Positions 34,194 to 62,749 of a DNA stretch of 64,000 nucleotides are shown here, piece by piece. Origin of the DNA: Cupriavidus malaysiensis (lineage in GTDB: Bacteria > Pseudomonadota > Gammaproteobacteria > Burkholderiales > Burkholderiaceae). The notes below the pieces were generated by a model. That model saw only the letters and a program-made list of their open reading frames with translations. It did no database searches and was not told where the DNA came from. The position numbers were made by a program, and so were the translations under genes. Location: assembly GCF_001854325.1 (NCBI RefSeq), contig NZ_CP017754.1:1674001-1738000 (forward strand), given 5' to 3'. Each line of letters begins with the position of its first letter. Position 1 is the stretch's first letter.

Positions 34194-35911
<1,718 letters not shown>

Positions 35912-44504: not shown

Positions 44505-45215
44505 GTCTGCGGGGCAACGGCCTGTTTCGACTCCCCCTGCGGGGGAGCCGACCTACTTTCTTTGTCTCGCCAAAGAAAGTAGGCAAAGAAAGGCGACCCG
44601 GGTGCGGCGACCCCCCCCCTCGCGAATGGGCCCCGGCCGCCGCGCCCGTCCGAACTCGCGGCCTGCGGCCGCTCAGACAGCGGACGGGCTTCATCGGCGG
44701 CCGGGGCCAATTCGCGAGGCGCCGCACACGGGAGGGAAAGGCCAACCGTTGGTCTGCGAGCGGGCTCACTTTTGCATAACAGCCAGGTTTGCTGAGCCTT
44801 TGTGTTCGGCCAGCAGTTGGCCGAACACAGCCCACCCGAAGCGAAGCGAGGCGTGGCGTCTGTTCCCTGCCGTGTGCGGCGCCTCGCGGGCTGAGGCAAA
44901 GAGCGGATTAGAGGGCCCCCTGTCTGAGGATCGCCTTAAGGCGATCCGAGTTGGGGCCCGGCCGCTCTTTGCCTCAGCACGCGAGGGGTTTTTGAGCCGC
45001 ACCCGGCGCGCCTTCTTTGCCTACTTTCTTGGGCAAGACCAAGAAAGTAGGTCGGCTCCCCCGCAGGGGGAGTCGAAACAGGCCGTTGTCTCGCAGACCG
45101 ACACCCCCCCGAATCCACGCGCTAAATCACGAAAGCCGAAACAGGCCGTGGCCCCGCAGACCGACAGCACCCAAAGACAAGCACGAGATCAAGAGAACCG
45201 AAACAAGCCATTGCC
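44505..45215. repeat. large nested palindromic repeat element, copy R1
   Basis: An element of about 0.7 kb between the convergent LysR and GST genes. It starts and ends with the same segment in opposite orientation (left 44515-44600, right about 45010-45088): CAACGGCCTGTTTCGAC, a CTCCCCC-TGC-GGGGGAG hairpin and a 13-bp CCTACTTTC... hairpin. Inside are two nested palindromes: core A (arms 44618-44642 and 44695-44719, with inner stems CCCGTCCG/CGGACGGG and GCGGCC/GGCCGC) and core B (arms 44881-44905 and 44965-44989, inner GGATCGCC-TTAA-GGCGATCC). A GTGTTCGGCCA stem at 44802-44828 lies between them. No protein-coding signal survives comparison; the whole 825-base spacer 44444-45268 is accounted for by this element and its flanks. 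Confidence 0.92.
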
Positions 45216-56915: not shown

Positions 56916-56943
56916 TTTTCTTGTTGTTGGTTTGTCGTTTGGA

Positions 56944-57384
56944 TTCGGGCGGTGTCGGTTTGCGAGGCAACGACCTGTTTCGACTCCCCCTGCGGGGAGC
57001 CGACTCGCTTTCGTGACGCAATGCTTTTGCGCGTGGATTCGAGTGGTATCGGTCAGTGTGACAACGGCCTGTTTCGACTCCCCCTGCGGGGGAGCCGACC
57101 TACTTTCTTGGTCTTGCCCAAGAAAGTAGGCAAAGAAGGCGCGCCGGGTGCGGCTCAACCCCCCCTCGCGTGCTGTGGCAAAGAGCGGCCGGGCCCCAAC
57201 TCGGATCGCCTTAAGGCGATCCTCAGACAGGGGGCCCTCTTTTCCGCTCTTTGCCTCAGCCCGCGAGGCGCCGCACACGGCAGGGAAAAGATGCCACGCC
57301 TCGCTGCGCTTCGGGCGGGGGGTGTGCGGCCAGCTTGCTGGCCGCACACCAATGCACACGTGACTCGATGCCTTGTCGCTTGTC
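56944..57384. repeat. palindromic repeat array R2, tandem unit U1
   Basis: 441-base unit. Order: GTCGACTCG-type lead, CTCCCCC hairpin 57078-57094, CCTACTTTCTTGG / CCAAGAAAGTAGG stem 57099-57130, core B palindrome 57164-57268 (23 of 25 outer pairs; inner GGATCGCC-TTAA-GGCGATCC at 57203-57222), and a perfect 14-bp GGTGTGCGGCCAGC / GCTGGCCGCACACC stem 57321-57350. Repeats as U2 at a 439-441 base period. Confidence 0.95.
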
Positions 57385-57823
57385 TTCGGGCGGTGTTGGT
57401 GTGCGGGGCAACGGCCTGTTTCGACCCCCTGCGGGGAGCCGACTGGCTTTCGTGACGCACGGCTTTTGCGCGTGGATTCGAGTGGTATCGGTCAGTGTGA
57501 CAACGGCCTGTTTCGACTCCCCCTGCGGGGGAGCCGACCTACTTTCTTGGTCTTGCCCAAGAAAGTAGGCAAAGAAGGCGCGCCGGGTGCGGCTCAACCC
57601 CCCCTCGCGTGCTGGGGCAAAGAGCGGCCGGGCCCCAACTCGGATCGCCTTAAGGCGATCCTCAGACAGGGGGCCCTCTTTTCCGCTCTTTGCCCCAGCA
57701 CGCGAGGCGCCGCACACGGCAGGGAACAGACGCCACGCCTCGCTGCGCTTCGGGCGGGGGGTGTGCGGCCAGCTTGCTGGCCGCACACCAATGCACACGT
57801 GACTCGATGCCTTGTCGCTTGTC
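57385..57823. repeat. palindromic repeat array R2, tandem unit U2
   Basis: 439-base near copy of U1. Its core B outer stem is perfect over 25 pairs because a pair that is A-T or mismatched in other copies is G-C here (CTGGGGC / GCCCCAG). Same GGTGTGCGGCCAGC stem. Confidence 0.95.
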
Positions 57824-58203
57824 TTCGGGGGGTGTCGGTCTGCGAGACAACGGCCTGTTTCGACTCCCCTGCGGGGAGCCGACTCGCTTTCGTGACGCAA
57901 GGCTTTTGCGCGTGGATTCGAGTGGTATCGGTCAGTGTGACAACGGCCTGTTTCGACTCCCCCTGCGGGGGAGCCGACCTACTTTCTTGGTCTTGCCCAA
58001 GAAAGTAGGCAAAGAAGGCGCGCCGGGTGCGGCTCAACCCCCCCTCGCGTGCTGAGGCAAAGAGCTGCCGGGCCCCAACTCGGATCGCCTCAAGGCGATC
58101 CTCAGACAGGGGGCCCTCTTTTCCGCTCTTTGCCTCAGCCCGCGAGGCGCCGCACACGGCAGGGAACAGACGCCACGCCTCGCTTCGCTTCGGGTGGGCT
58201 GTG
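57824..58203. repeat. palindromic repeat array R2, tandem unit U3 (diverging tail)
   Basis: Third unit, about 380 bases before it diverges. The terminal stem changes to GTGTTCGGCCAGC / GCTGGCCGAACAC (58201-58227), i.e. T-A replaces the G-C pair of U1/U2. Core B is CTGAGGC / GCCTCAG. Confidence 0.93.
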
Positions 58204-58462
58204 TTCGGCCAGCTGCTGGCCGAACACAAAGGCTTAGCAAACCTGGCCGTTATGCAAAAGTGAGCCCGCTCGCAGACCAACGGTTGGCCTTTCCCTCCCG
58301 TGTGCGGCGCCTCGCGAATTAGCCCCGGCCGCCGATGAAGCCCGTCCGCTGTCTGAGCGGCCGCAGGCCGCGAGTTCGGACGGGCGCGGCGGCCGGGGCT
58401 AATTCGCGAGGGGGGGGCGCCGCACCCGGGTCGCCTTTCTTTGCTTACTTTCTTTGGCGAGA
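58204..58462. repeat. palindromic repeat array R2, inverted core A half
   Basis: Reverse-complement of the left half of R1 (44552-44870). Core A arms lie at 58310-58334 and 58387-58411, perfect over 25 pairs. The unit ends in the 5' arm of a CTTACTTTCTTTG hairpin (58444-58456) interrupted by the insertion sequence. Confidence 0.93.
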
Positions 58463-59741
58463 TGTATAGACCGGGGACATAGGTGACACCTGTGCGAGGA
58501 CATGGTTGACACATATTAAGCCGCCTGGTGGTCGTTCAAATCGATGTAGCCGAAGCAGTGATCGACGAAATACAGATCGAATCGTCCATCGTGGTTGGGT
58601 TGTGGGCGCAAGGCGACCGGGAAATCTCGTAGGGCATTGGACACTTTGAAGGTTTGCCCGCGAAAGCGCAGTTGTCCGTCCCATTTGATCTTCACCACCA
58701 GATCGTCAGGGCCGTATTCGATCTCCGGTAGCACCTCCGGATAGGAGCGAGGACTGGGCTGATAGCGTGTCACCGGCGTCGCCAGGCCGAGTGCCTCGTG
58801 TGGGCGCTGCAAGTTGTAGATATCGCGCCAGGCATCAAACGCATGCTGGGCTTGCAGGCTGGAGGCAAAGCCACGGGCATTGATCACTTCGGCTTTGAGG
58901 GTGCGGTGAAAGCGTTCGTCCTTGCCATTGGTTTGAGGATGGGCCGGACGGCTATGGGTCAGGCGCACGCCCAGCCGGATGAGCCAGACCCCCAGGCCGG
59001 TGAGCTGCCCCGGTTGTGAAGGACTGCCCCACGGCGCCCCATTGTCGGCGTTGATACGCCAAGGCAGTCCGAAGTGGCGAAAGGCCTGGGCCAGGTGCTC
59101 CTGGACCACAGCGGTGTGGGTCTGCGTACAGGCGGCCAGCGTGACGGCGAAGCGGGAATGATCGTCCAGTACCGTCAATGGTGAGCACATCTGGCCATCG
59201 TGCGTGCGAAAGCCGCCCTTGAAATCCATTTGCCACAGCTGATTGGGCGCCGCATGTTCAAAGCGTTGCCAGGGCTGGGCCTTGACCGAGGCTTCGGGTG
59301 AGATCAGGCCATGTCGATGCAGGATGGACGTCACGGTGCTCGGAGCCGGCACCGGTGTGTGGCCCAGATCCTGAAGCCGCCGGCTGATCTTGCGTCCGCC
59401 CCAAGCCGGGTGCTGCAGGCGCAGGGCGACGACCAACCGCTCCAGTTCCTCCGCCGTTCGGGTCGGACTGGTCGCGGGCCGGCGCGACCGCTCGACCAAA
59501 CCAGCCATCTCCTGTTCGGTGTACCGAGCAATCCACTTATAGCCGGTCTGCGGGGAGATGCCGTAGCGTTGGCATAGCTGGCGGCGATTGCAGCCCTCTT
59601 GCTGGGCGAGCAGGACGAATTCGTGGCGCAGGCTCATGGTGTCGCGTGGGCTCCAGGGCATGACGGACTCCGGCAGAAACTCTGCCGTGAAGTGTCAACC
59701 ATGTCCTCGCACACCTGTCCACCATGTCCCCGGTCTATACA
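58463..59741. mobile_element. IS481-family insertion sequence, complete
   Basis: 1279-base element. Terminal inverted repeats begin TGTATAGACCGGGGACAT and extend about 50 bases (58463-58512 and 59692-59741, 45 of 50 identical). The 6-base target duplication GCGAGA lies at 58457-58462 and 59742-59747. It carries one transposase gene on the minus strand. The insertion is in the hairpin loop of the repeat array. Confidence 0.95.
58516..59661 (-). CDS. IS481-family transposase
   Basis: 381-residue transposase. N-terminal helix-turn-helix (GCNRRQLCQRYGISPQTGYK), then the DDE integrase core: Asp in WQMDFKGGF, Asp in RINADNGAPWG and Glu in GKDERFHRTLKAEV. The start MPWSPRDT fits the IS481 N-terminus. 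No frameshift or stop is visible, so the element could be active. It lies within the terminal repeats at 58463-59741. Confidence 0.94.
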   Translation of the reverse strand: MPWSPRDTMSLRHEFVLLAQQEGCNRRQLCQRYGISPQTGYKWIARYTEQEMAGLVERSRRPATSPTRTAEELERLVVALRLQHPAWGGRKISRRLQDLGHTPVPAPSTVTSILHRHGLISPEASVKAQPWQRFEHAAPNQLWQMDFKGGFRTHDGQMCSPLTVLDDHSRFAVTLAACTQTHTAVVQEHLAQAFRHFGLPWRINADNGAPWGSPSQPGQLTGLGVWLIRLGVRLTHSRPAHPQTNGKDERFHRTLKAEVINARGFASSLQAQHAFDAWRDIYNLQRPHEALGLATPVTRYQPSPRSYPEVLPEIEYGPDDLVVKIKWDGQLRFRGQTFKVSNALRDFPVALRPQPNHDGRFDLYFVDHCFGYIDLNDHQAA

Positions 59742-59965
59742 GCGAGACAAAGAAAGTGAGTCGGCTCCCCGCAGGGGAGTCGAAACAGGCCGTTGCCTCG
59801 CATACCAACACCGCCCAAACCCACATGACAAGCGTCAAGTCACGAGAGCCGAAACAGGCCGTTGACCTGCACACCAACACCGCTCGAACCCACACGACAA
59901 GCGTCAAGTCACGAGAGCCGAAACAGGCCGTTGACCTGCAAACCGACACCGCCCGAAAAAATCTC
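59742..59965. repeat. palindromic repeat array R2, right part after the insertion
   Basis: Begins with the duplicated loop GCGAGA and the 3' arm CAAAGAAAGTGAG (59748-59760), followed by CTCCCC / GGGGAG and GTCGAAACAGGCCGTTG. Then a 69-base unit repeats twice (59831 and 59900: AGCGTCAAGTCACGAGAG...), each containing CGAAACAGGCCGTTG. The remaining 50 bases to 60018 are plain spacer. Confidence 0.9.
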
Positions 59966-60018: not shown

Positions 60019-61092
60019 TTACTGCTTCGCTTTCTGCGCGTACTGCCACCCCATCTCCGCCATCGGCCGCGCCCGCTTGCCCGCATCCAGCGCCTGCGCC
60101 GACGAGGCCGTGCCGTCCACCACCCGCTTCATGATCCCCTGCAGGATGCCGGCAATGCGGAACATGCTGAAGGCCAGGTAGAAGTTCCAGTCGCCGGTGA
60201 TCTCGCGCCCGGTGCGCTGTTCGTACAGCTTGCGGTAGCTGGCTTCGTCGGGGATGCCGAGCGAGGCATAGTCGAGGCCGGCGATGCCGCGGAACTGGCC
60301 CGGTGCGATATGCCAGCTCATGCAGTGGTAGCCGAAGTCGGCCATCGGATGGCCCAGCGTCGACAGTTCCCAGTCGAGCACGGCCAGCACGCGCGGCTCG
60401 GTCGGGTGGAACATCAGGTTGTCGAGGCGGTAGTCGCCATGGACGATGCTGGTCAGGTCGGCGCCTTCCTGCGGGATATGCTGCGGCAGCCATTCCATCA
60501 GCGCATCCATCGAGGGGATGGACTCGGTTTCCGACAGCTTGTACTGCTTGGTCCAGCGTTCGATCTGGCGCGAGAAGTAGTTGCCGGGTTTGCCGTAGTC
60601 GCCCAGGCCGATGGCCTGGTAGTCGACGCTGTGCAGGGCGGCGATGACGCGGTTCATCTCGTCGTAGATGGCGCCGCGCTCGCTGTTGCTCATGTCGGGC
60701 AGCGACTGGTCCCACAGCACGCGGCCGGCGACGTATTCCATCACGTAGAAGTCGCGGCCGATCACCGTTTCGTCGTCGCACAGCGCGTACATCTTCGCCA
60801 CCGGGACGTCGGTGCCGGCCAGCGCGGCCATCACGCGGTACTCGCGCTCGATGGCGTGGGCCGAGGGCAGCAGCTTGGCGCGCGGGCCGGGCTTGGCGCG
60901 CATCACATAGGTGCACCCCGGCGTGATCAGCTTGAAGGTGGGGTTGGACTGGCCGCCCTTGAACTGTTCGACCGTCAGCGGGCCGGCGAAGCCGTCCACA
61001 TGCTGGCGCATCCAGTCTTCGAGCGCGCCGAGGTCGAAGCGTTGCTGCTCGGCCACGGGCCGGGTGCCTTCGAAGTGCGATACGTTGCTCAT
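60019..61092 (-). CDS. phosphotransferase-fold kinase, ACAD10-like
   Basis: 357-residue protein with the aminoglycoside phosphotransferase/choline kinase fold. Kinase motifs are HGDYRLDNLMFHP (catalytic Asp, metal Asn) and VLDWELSTLGHPMADFGYH (metal Asp). These proteins are associated with acyl-CoA dehydrogenases (ACAD10/11 types) and may phosphorylate 4-hydroxy-acyl-CoA; in this window the ACAD branch is at 42075-43337. It is the last gene of the leftward operon. The ATG is at 61092 (GGAGACAGC upstream). Confidence 0.9.
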   Translation of the reverse strand: MSNVSHFEGTRPVAEQQRFDLGALEDWMRQHVDGFAGPLTVEQFKGGQSNPTFKLITPGCTYVMRAKPGPRAKLLPSAHAIEREYRVMAALAGTDVPVAKMYALCDDETVIGRDFYVMEYVAGRVLWDQSLPDMSNSERGAIYDEMNRVIAALHSVDYQAIGLGDYGKPGNYFSRQIERWTKQYKLSETESIPSMDALMEWLPQHIPQEGADLTSIVHGDYRLDNLMFHPTEPRVLAVLDWELSTLGHPMADFGYHCMSWHIAPGQFRGIAGLDYASLGIPDEASYRKLYEQRTGREITGDWNFYLAFSMFRIAGILQGIMKRVVDGTASSAQALDAGKRARPMAEMGWQYAQKAKQ

Positions 61093-61145
61093 GCTGTCTC
61101 CGTGTTTTTGTCGCGAGGGTTCCGTGCTTGGGTGCGGCGCGGCGT

Positions 61146-61871
61146 TCAGCCCGGCAGGGCGCGCAGCCGCAGGTATTGGTTCAGCATCACTTCCATGGTG
61201 GTGTGGCGCGGGCCGCTGTGCACCGGGGTCGGGGCCGAATAATTGAGCATGCGCACGACCCAGTCGCCGGGCGCCTGGCCGACATCGAGCACATTGATGC
61301 AGCCGGCGGTCTGCAGCAGCGAGCCGAAGAAGACGCGCTGGCCGCAGGTGATCGCATGCGACAGGATGGCGCGGTTGGTGCCGCCATGCAAGACCAGCAG
61401 GGCCGTGTCCCAGTCCGGGTCGGCGCGCAGCCGCTGCAGGCCGGGCAGCACGCGGTCGAGGAACTCGCCGACGCTCTCGCCGCCGAGGAAGCGCTGCTGC
61501 TCGGCGACCACGCCCTCGAAGGCGCCGAGAAAGGCGTCGCGCAGGCTGTCCTCGGGGATCTCGCTGATCTGGCCGCCGCGGATTTCCTGCCAGTCGCTCC
61601 AGGTCTCGGGGGTGCTGCCTTGCATGGCCGGGGTCTCGGCCAGCACACGCTGCGCGGTTTCCACCGTGCGCGGCAGGCCGCTGACGATGACGCGGTCGAA
61701 GCGGATACCTTCGGCGGCGAAGGCGCGGCCGGCGGCGGTGGCCTGCATGCGGCCGGTCTCGTTGAGCACGACCTGCTCGGGCAGCGACTTGCGGCCGCGT
61801 TCGTCGAAGTAGTCGACCGCGCCGTGGCGCATCAGGTAAATGCGCCGGCGGGCGGCGGGGGCCAGCTCCAT
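61146..61871 (-). CDS. histidine phosphatase family protein
   Basis: 241-residue phosphoglycerate-mutase-like phosphatase. The first catalytic motif RRRIYLMRHGAVDYFD has the phospho-accepting His of RHG, PRTVETAQ follows, and the second His is in LHGGTNRAIL. The start is at ATG 61871 because GGAGGAGACAAGG lies directly before it; an in-frame ATG at 61886 is also possible. It lies 53 bases upstream of the kinase gene, which suggests a paired phosphorylation/dephosphorylation role in the same operon. Confidence 0.9.
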   Translation of the reverse strand: MELAPAARRRIYLMRHGAVDYFDERGRKSLPEQVVLNETGRMQATAAGRAFAAEGIRFDRVIVSGLPRTVETAQRVLAETPAMQGSTPETWSDWQEIRGGQISEIPEDSLRDAFLGAFEGVVAEQQRFLGGESVGEFLDRVLPGLQRLRADPDWDTALLVLHGGTNRAILSHAITCGQRVFFGSLLQTAGCINVLDVGQAPGDWVVRMLNYSAPTPVHSGPRHTTMEVMLNQYLRLRALPG

Positions 61872-61969
61872 CCTTGTCTCCTCCATGCCTCTGGTGTGCC
61901 TTGGGGAGGCGCCTCGCGGCGCCATGTGACAAGGCCGGCGCCTGGTGGCGCCGGCCTTGCCGGGGGTGT

Positions 61970-62749
61970 TCAGCGGTAGTTCGGCTTGCGCTTTTCGAGG
62001 AAGGCGCTGATGCCTTCGCCGCCGTCCGGGTGGTGCAGCGCCGCCACGAAGCTGTCGCGCTCGGCCACCAGGTGCTCGGCGAGCGAGGCGCTGGCGGCAT
62101 GATTGACCAGGTCCTTGATACGGCCTACCGCGTGCGGCGACTCGCCGGCCAGTTCGCCGGCCAGCTTGAGCGCCTCGGCCAGCGCCTGGCCCGGCGCGGC
62201 GATGCGGTTGACCAGGCCGAAGTGCTGCAGGCGCGCGGCGTCGACCGGCCGGCCCAGCATCATCAGCTCGCTGGCGAGCTGGCGGGGCAGGGCGCGCGCC
62301 AGTTCGTAGGAGCCGCCGCCGTCGGGCGTCAGGCCGACCTTGGCATAGGCCATGACGAACCTGGCGTCGCTGGCGGCGACGACGAAGTCGCAGGCGAGCA
62401 CCAGCGAGAAGCCGGCGCCGGCCGCCGGGCCTTCGACCGCGGCGATGATGGGCTTGGGGAAGGCGTGCAGGCCTTCGATCCAGCGGTTCAGCACTTCGAT
62501 GCTGCGCGCCTGCACCTCGGGCGGCTGGGCGCGGTTGCCGAGCAGCCGGTTGAGGTTGCCGCCGGCGCAGAACACGCCGTCGGCGCCGGTCAGCACGACC
62601 GCGCGCAGCGAGTCGTCGCCAGCGGCCGTTTCCAGCGCCGCCTGCGAGGCCGCGTAGATGTCCGGGTGCAGCGCATTGCGCGCCTCCGGGTTGGAGATGG
62701 TCAGCACCAGGGTGGAGCCGACGCGTTCGGAGAGGAGCTGTGCGGTCAT
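61970..62749 (-). CDS. enoyl-CoA hydratase/isomerase, PaaG-like
   Basis: 259-residue crotonase. VFCAGGNLNRLLGNRAQ is the oxyanion-hole strand, and VEGPAAGAGFSLVLACDF is the first active-site helix. The second reads AYAKVGLTPDGGGSYELAR, with Asp-Gly-Gly rather than a catalytic Glu, as in PaaG-type isomerases. It is 65 bases downstream of the hydroxyacyl-CoA dehydrogenase in the same leftward operon. Confidence 0.9.
   Translation of the reverse strand: MTAQLLSERVGSTLVLTISNPEARNALHPDIYAASQAALETAAGDDSLRAVVLTGADGVFCAGGNLNRLLGNRAQPPEVQARSIEVLNRWIEGLHAFPKPIIAAVEGPAAGAGFSLVLACDFVVAASDARFVMAYAKVGLTPDGGGSYELARALPRQLASELMMLGRPVDAARLQHFGLVNRIAAPGQALAEALKLAGELAGESPHAVGRIKDLVNHAASASLAEHLVAERDSFVAALHHPDGGEGISAFLEKRKPNYR

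Follow-up and report, generated by a model that had tools for sequence, protein, structure and literature searches.

We studied a family of long palindromic repeats in 64,000 nucleotides of Cupriavidus malaysiensis DNA (contig NZ_CP017754.1; this whole stretch is called the window). Their units keep a conserved fold of several helices, and we regard them, with moderate rather than high confidence, as copies of a mobile or once-mobile non-coding element whose recognised feature is the fold of a single strand. A unit measures about 200-300 bases and contains an outer helix, a core, an apical hairpin, a pyrimidine-rich stem 1, a GC stem 0 and a repeated tail. Folded, it would form a long rod made of the first three helices, with fixed unpaired internal loops, followed by stem 1, stem 0 and the tail. 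Two types recur in the own genome and in the genomes G023 and G024: alpha, with the stem 1 loop TCTTGC and the box GCGCGCC, and beta, with TCTCGC and GCGACCC. Units occur singly, in tandem or as inverted alpha/beta pairs. R1 (44530-45073) and U3+R2 are one compound element in opposite orientations, in which a beta half and an alpha half face each other around the terminal stem.

Table 1. Positions of the repeat units, their parts and neighbouring features in the window.
Feature	Positions	Strand	Parts and remarks
R1, beta half	44530-44731	-	stem 0 44530-44547; stem 1 44552-44583; outer helix 44598-44608/44721-44731; core A 44618-44642/44695-44719; apical motif 44653-44679
Terminal stem, middle of compound R1	44801-44829	.	
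R1, alpha half (inverted)	44870-45073	+	outer helix 44870-44880/44996-45006; core B 44882-44906/44962-44986; apical motif 44921-44952; stem 1 45020-45051; stem 0 45056-45073
Repeated modules beside U1 stem 0	56918-57083	-	two of 6 copies of a 72-base family between 56918 and 57962
U1 (alpha)	57077-57350	- (putative structured strand)	found by repeat finding and direct reading; stem 0 57077-57094; stem 1 57099-57130; outer helix 57144-57154/57270-57280; core B 57164-57188/57244-57268; apical motif 57198-57229; terminal stem 57321-57350
U2 (alpha)	57516-57789	-	stem 0 57516-57533; stem 1 57538-57569; outer helix 57583-57593/57709-57719; core B 57603-57627/57683-57707; apical motif 57637-57668; terminal stem 57760-57789
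U3 (alpha)	57956-58228	-	stem 0 57956-57973; stem 1 57978-58009; outer helix 58023-58033/58149-58159; core B 58043-58067/58123-58147; apical motif 58077-58108; terminal stem 58200-58228
R2 (beta, inverted), first part	58298-58462	+	includes first half of stem 1; outer helix 58298-58308/58419-58429; core A 58310-58334/58387-58411; apical motif 58350-58376
IS481-like insertion sequence in R2 stem 1 loop	58463-59741	-	inverted ends TGTATAGACCGGGGACAT; transposase ORF 58516-59661
R2, remainder	59742-59957	+	second half of stem 1; stem 0 59765-59780; repeated tail

The IS481-like element inside R2 has the hexamer GCGAGA on both sides (58457-58462 and 59742-59747). The same insertion sequence end borders a stem 1 loop at seven ends, in four of 13 own-genome sources (the window copy, L037, L043 and L039), and in this search, which covered element-bearing sources, the insertion sequence seems to target the stem 1 hairpin. 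Two other features of the window were recorded: an ORF of 693 residues in which Pfam recognises an APH phosphotransferase domain (60019-62100, minus strand), which adjoins the interrupted element, and an Rfam match to 5_ureB_sRNA (RF02514; 142 bits, 34346-34631, minus strand), which is unrelated to the element.

A sequence-only reading of the window had pointed to four stems in which both bases of a pair change between copies while pairing is kept, and direct reading together with a repeat finder located all four. In stem 1 the R1 arms are CCTACTTTCTTTG/CAAAGAAAGTAGG, whereas U1-U3 and the reverse half of R1 have in common the arms CCTACTTTCTTGG/CCAAGAAAGTAGG, giving T-A against G-C as claimed. 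Core B has an A-T pair (CTGAGGC/GCCTCAG) in U3 and R1 and a G-C pair (CTGGGGC/GCCCCAG) in U2; one pair of core A is G-C in R1 and A-T in R2; and the terminal stem has G-C in U1 and U2 and T-A in U3 and R1. Two mismatches were absent from that reading: a T.T in core B of U1 (CTGTGGC/GCCTCAG) and, beside the cited core A pair, a G.A in R1 at a position that is T-A in R2 (arm complementarity 96% in R1 and 100% in R2). The agreement of R1 with U3+R2 is not independent, since both are the same compound element, inverted, and the window's own examples would not alone have proved a selected structure. Three units folded on both strands gave z-scores from -8.0 to -12.9 relative to 60 dinucleotide shuffles each.

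Further copies came from the own genome (7.95 Mb in 3 contigs), where a 441-base unit query matched 120 places, and from its relatives. Matches were found in six of 60 genomes, the own included (with G023, G024, G021, G018 and G059); those in G018 and G059 were short and weak only. When the core pattern was searched in named genomes, one per species, the sole match was Cupriavidus basilensis KF708. We extracted 102 units: 34 from the own genome, at least 37 from G023 and at least 30 from G024 (among the matches listed for these two), and one from G021. Five units of unclear type, most with an interrupted stem 1, were left out, some interrupted units such as R2 being kept; 96 distinct units were aligned and 94 entered the covariation tests. 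The G021 locus L148 (around 1485-2165) also holds inverted pairs of another family, spaced by about 610 bases, whose stem 1 is similar but whose body is different.

Covariation was tested with our own implementation of the R-scape idea: the null keeps the tree and the number of substitutions per branch and moves the substitutions to random columns, and the score is a G-test with average-product correction over all column pairs. With 94 units from four genomes, four of 21,736 pairs reached E < 0.05 (60 simulations), all of them in the core stem, so the covariation check proposed in the sequence-only reading placed every significant pair inside a predicted stem. A stem-only test (200 simulations) passed 10 of 76 predicted pairs, in stem 0, stem 1, the outer helix and the core, against 0, 1, 0, 0, 1 and 0 when the structure was slid by -3, -2, -1, 1, 2 and 3 columns; the 76 pairs derive from folds of both strands of the same sequences, which favours the unslid structure in this test, though not in the all-pairs test. 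Sister genomes only (64 rows) gave 10 of 76 (slid controls 0, 0, 3, 1, 0, 0), alpha units only (62 rows) gave 4 of 76 (slid controls all 0), and the own genome alone (30 units) gave 0 of 76. The interpretation of the double changes as the mark of a selected structure thus held once sister genomes were included, but not from the own genome by itself. The helices covary beyond phylogeny, as is asked of structured RNAs.

The mismatches that remain in the stems indicate which strand is constrained. Units were folded without G-U pairs and single mismatches flanked by pairs were counted, so that both strands were treated alike; an A.C mismatch on one strand is a G.U pair on the opposite strand. Among 97 Cupriavidus units, isolated mismatches comprised 149 A.C, 1 G.T and 82 others, or 26, 1 and 32 distinct contexts; 26 against 1 corresponds to about 4e-7 in a two-sided sign test, with contexts that are not fully independent. 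Mutation bias fails to explain the A.C excess, because transitions in unpaired columns lean the opposite way (36 C>T or A>G against 22 G>A or T>C). Of the 350 A.C cells in the aligned units, 95 belong to a single extension pair for which the listed strand never shows pairing, and a column that is probably misaligned accounts for 10 of the 22 G.T cells. The other strand also folds more stably in all three units tried (for U2, -149.3 against -140.8 for the listed strand, with z of -12.9 and -10.9; the R1 beta half has z of -8.0 on both). The A.C excess and the stabler opposite fold point to the reverse complement of the listing as the probable constrained strand in Cupriavidus, with the core first and stem 1 and stem 0 last. 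Outside Cupriavidus the spanning helices had 13 A.C and 5 G.T, which is not significant (P = 0.096), a looser set had 18 A.C and 6 G.T contexts, and the apical hairpin had no A.C excess (14 G.T, 10 A.C). Wobble pairs do not tell RNA from single-stranded DNA. A separate observation concerns columns 52, 73 and 82-90 of the aligned Cupriavidus units: where the 5' arm of stem 1 changes between C and T, the 3' arm changes between G and A, and in most cases so does the GGCAAAGAAGG segment that follows, as though the 3' arm of stem 1 were able to pair with either of two CTTTCTT copies.

Copies at orthologous loci bear on how the paired changes arise. Flanks of G023 and G024 match at 12 element loci, eight of them on both sides, with 89-98% identity (among the matches listed). 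Core arms were read by pattern at 11 of these locus pairs, with both partners read in eight; seven of the eight differ in the core arms, six of those on both sides, and no arm pair loses more than one of its 14 base pairs. Stem versions are common to copies as haplotypes, the same arm versions being found at many loci. As both arms change together at orthologous loci and arm versions are shared, many of the double changes between copies were probably copied as a block from other copies, and independent compensatory events would be fewer than differing copies because copy-to-copy conversion would move paired blocks. The covariation signal also holds across species, and the pairing of the apical helix across genera. 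These block differences and haplotypes are what would be expected if the repeats were DNA palindromes kept perfect by mutational bias, through template switching between arms and conversion between copies, with no selection. We consider that account improbable: such correction is strand-blind, yet A.C and G.T contexts stand at 26 to 1; it would erase the internal loops, which stay unpaired and conserved; and mismatched intermediates persist (22 of 96 cells are A.C at one pair). Conversion between arms, which the sequence-only reading had named among the explanations that would undo its claim, is contradicted as the sole cause by the strand asymmetry and the unpaired loops; the probable movement of paired blocks between copies stays as a caveat.

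Gene context was derived from crude ORF scoring of 65 clusters in four genomes (one cluster in G021; among the matches listed): 28 lie between convergent genes, 29 between tandem genes and 3 between divergent genes, and 5 are unknown. This gene context, the strong hairpins and the presence of copies at orthologous places in G023 and G024 would suit a host-serving RNA at gene ends, whose hairpins protect or terminate neighbouring transcripts as proposed for REP/BIME. That role seems to us rather unlikely, for the 41 single units (among the matches listed) are not consistently oriented relative to adjacent genes: 16 are convergent, 12 are tandem in the direction of the putative structured strand and 9 tandem in the opposite direction, with 4 other or unknown. 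Occurrence is also patchy, with matches in the six of 60 genomes mentioned, two of them by short weak matches only. Against it stands also a unit between two genes that we take, from reading by eye, to be rplY and pth, which follows a terminator-like hairpin and lies upstream of the next gene. G023, G291 and G024 have this unit at the site, which is empty in six others (nine listed of 40 matched). It has short simple repeats on its stem 0 side and no clear target duplication, filled and empty sites differing too much to judge. In the own genome the tail beside stem 0 consists of 62-base tandem repeats, with 6.7 copies at L035:4016-4430 and shorter arrays beside other copies. Single units of G023 and G024 (among the matches listed) have no inverted partner.

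For the mobile or once-mobile element that we favour, the likely form would be either an RNA read from the core to stem 1 or a single-stranded DNA intermediate of the same strand. Units would enter sites that are empty in relatives, by insertion rather than loss, and copies would exchange sequence, conversion being the presumed cause of the block differences. A trans-acting protein would recognise the fold, mobility would be the reason for its conservation, and transcription is likewise presumed.

The architecture is also found well outside Cupriavidus. The apical motif was searched as the pattern AACTCG - hairpin - CTCARACA, or in the stricter form AACTCGC...GCTCARACA, with the reversed pattern as control. 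The loose form gave 34 matches in the own genome against 1 reversed, and in many of 228 other genomes of the class sample it was no commoner than the reversed control; many loose-pattern matches are chance. The stricter form was present in 89 of 300 genomes of the order, in 52 of 134 genera, with 448 matches against 26 reversed, up to 19 per genome and 36 genomes with at least five. The phylum sample outside the class showed no enrichment (13 single matches against 8 reversed, by table reading). Short as it is, the motif lets the same architecture be found in many genomes, and the internal-loop motif AACTCG/CTCARACA is kept in genomes whose stems are unrelated but complementary.

We chose 102 motif strings from the outputs as likely members, a choice that favours pairing; the control re-deals the right arms of these same strings. 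In pairs 2-6 of the apical helix, 80.7% of 486 cells were Watson-Crick, whereas the re-dealt control averaged 44.6% and never exceeded 51.6%; 70 of the 486 cells were mismatches other than G.T or A.C. For the 26 strings of G367, G324 and G443 the value was 99.2%, and one position showed all four pair types. Directly below the motif, 17 of 55 class-level sites have a helix of at least six pairs, as do 42 of 11,000 random positions; 14 of the 17, from five genomes, are in the same register (0, +2). Stem 1-like hairpins recur as well: with a pyrimidine-rich arm and at least nine pairs, one lies within 330 bases of the motif at 18 of 55 class-level sites; with at least eight pairs, near 35 of 94 sites of a wider set, and near none of the 21 wider-set sites that have neither a 4-pair apical helix nor 12 spanning pairs. 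The structural criteria select 30 of the 94 wider-set sites, and inverted motif pairs are present in distant genomes. On the core side of a unit from the order Burkholderiales (L303, ~1600-1720) we observed a 12-base tandem repeat (GGCAAGAGCTAC), at the end opposite to the Cupriavidus tail.

Stem 1 was found between dapF and a DUF484 gene in Pasteurella multocida, with an inverted partner about 0.4 kb away, and between aceF and lpdA in Burkholderia cepacia; other carriers are Aeromonas caviae, Comamonas odontotermitis, Caballeronia and Pseudoalteromonas. Stem 1 regions match large replicons of all these genera and of Ilyobacter; some other matches from these searches fall in another part of the query. 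The megaplasmid of Ilyobacter polytropus (Fusobacteriota; L436, NC_014633.1), far outside the motif-enriched class, has six stem 1-like hairpins. Stem 1 and the apical motif are not always together, since only one of the four carriers read (Pasteurella, Aeromonas, Ilyobacter and Comamonas) has the motif, in loose form, in Comamonas. The window's alpha unit and the units of two distant genomes had no match in plasmids, the window's compound and the Pasteurella stem 1 none in phages, and a 52-base stem 1 none in E. coli. In IMG/VR, 3 of 121 motif sites were hairpin-like by our own thresholds (among 120 stretches listed), so that there is little sign of a viral carrier in these stretches. No Rfam family matches the element at gathering score, a permissive search returning sub-threshold, mostly generic hairpins. 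We found no description of this element family in the openly licensed literature, where short strings of stem 1 and the apical motif matched only unrelated papers. By analogy with SINE retroposons, one may speculate that this is an uncatalogued, class-wide family of the Gammaproteobacteria (in the GTDB sense), together with the stem 1 of the Fusobacteriota megaplasmid, which would spread as RNA by means of a structured body, a recognition hairpin and a simple-repeat tail; we hold this extension to be unlikely as a whole.

The strand-specific fold, the inverted pairs, the dispersed copies and the empty site would equally suit a DNA-hairpin substrate, that is, a single-stranded DNA fold bound by a recombinase or transposase (compare REP/RAYT, IS200 ends and attC sites), with no RNA role. 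A search for Y1_Tnp domains yielded no candidate enzyme: the own genome has a single match, whose 3.3 kb locus contains neither stem 1 nor core; among 23 Y1_Tnp loci from seven genomes, a core match occurs at L244 (G116) only; and G139 has no Y1_Tnp match though the motif family is present there. In these loci a link to RAYT/Y1 transposases is not supported. The units are also far longer than REPs, and a DNA-only substrate is to us a doubtful alternative, if somewhat less so than the gene-end RNA. A hand-read hint has become a statistically supported conserved fold with an indicated constrained strand. Conserved in fold and without an Rfam match, such a repeat family lends itself to transcript and structure probing, and it is relevant to the spread and persistence of long palindromic repeats in bacteria.

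Several known classes of repeats resemble the element. MITEs have no ORF, inverted ends, dispersed copies and empty sites. The element is like them (one example is in PMC4853749) in having no known ORF, inverted ends, dispersed copies and an empty site, and R1 has terminal inverted repeats with 94-base arms that are 93% complementary. It is unlike MITEs in that the Y1_Tnp search found no cognate transposase and the internal structure is conserved and not the ends only; at the filled site, which differs much from the empty ones, no clear target duplication was seen. As described in the part of PMC3733652 that we consulted, GTAG/CGTC REPs, BIMEs and TIRtrons are intergenic palindromes with inverted dimers, two stem versions and a gene-end bias; stem variants of REPs and BIMEs keep pairing, and GT pairs are taken there as a sign of RNA. 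All these features, the last for Cupriavidus units, are common to the window element, which differs from the repeats of that account in being about ten times longer, in having a fixed internal-loop motif, and in having neither an unpaired GTAG tag (the GTAG of stem 1 is inside the helix) nor a RAYT beside it in the own genome. On the same grounds (a unit of about 200-300 bases against a 20-40 base palindrome, no unpaired tag, no adjacent RAYT in the own genome) identity with REPs was rejected. The P. fluorescens repeats R0, R2, R178 and R200 are likewise intergenic, MITE-like families, several with inverted repeats, and have a tail-to-tail gene bias; in the portion of the source consulted they come without a class-wide motif or a strand-specific fold, and are set apart here by description (PMC2718517). 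The BRE is, like the element, a chromosomal intergenic repeat, known from Bordetella and Comamonadaceae, sometimes in variable tandem arrays and at an sRNA locus; in the consulted part of its description it differs in its full length of 75-91 bp and in having no structure or covariation reported (PMC3110155). With its partly similar taxonomic spread, and compared by description, BRE could be part of the same family.
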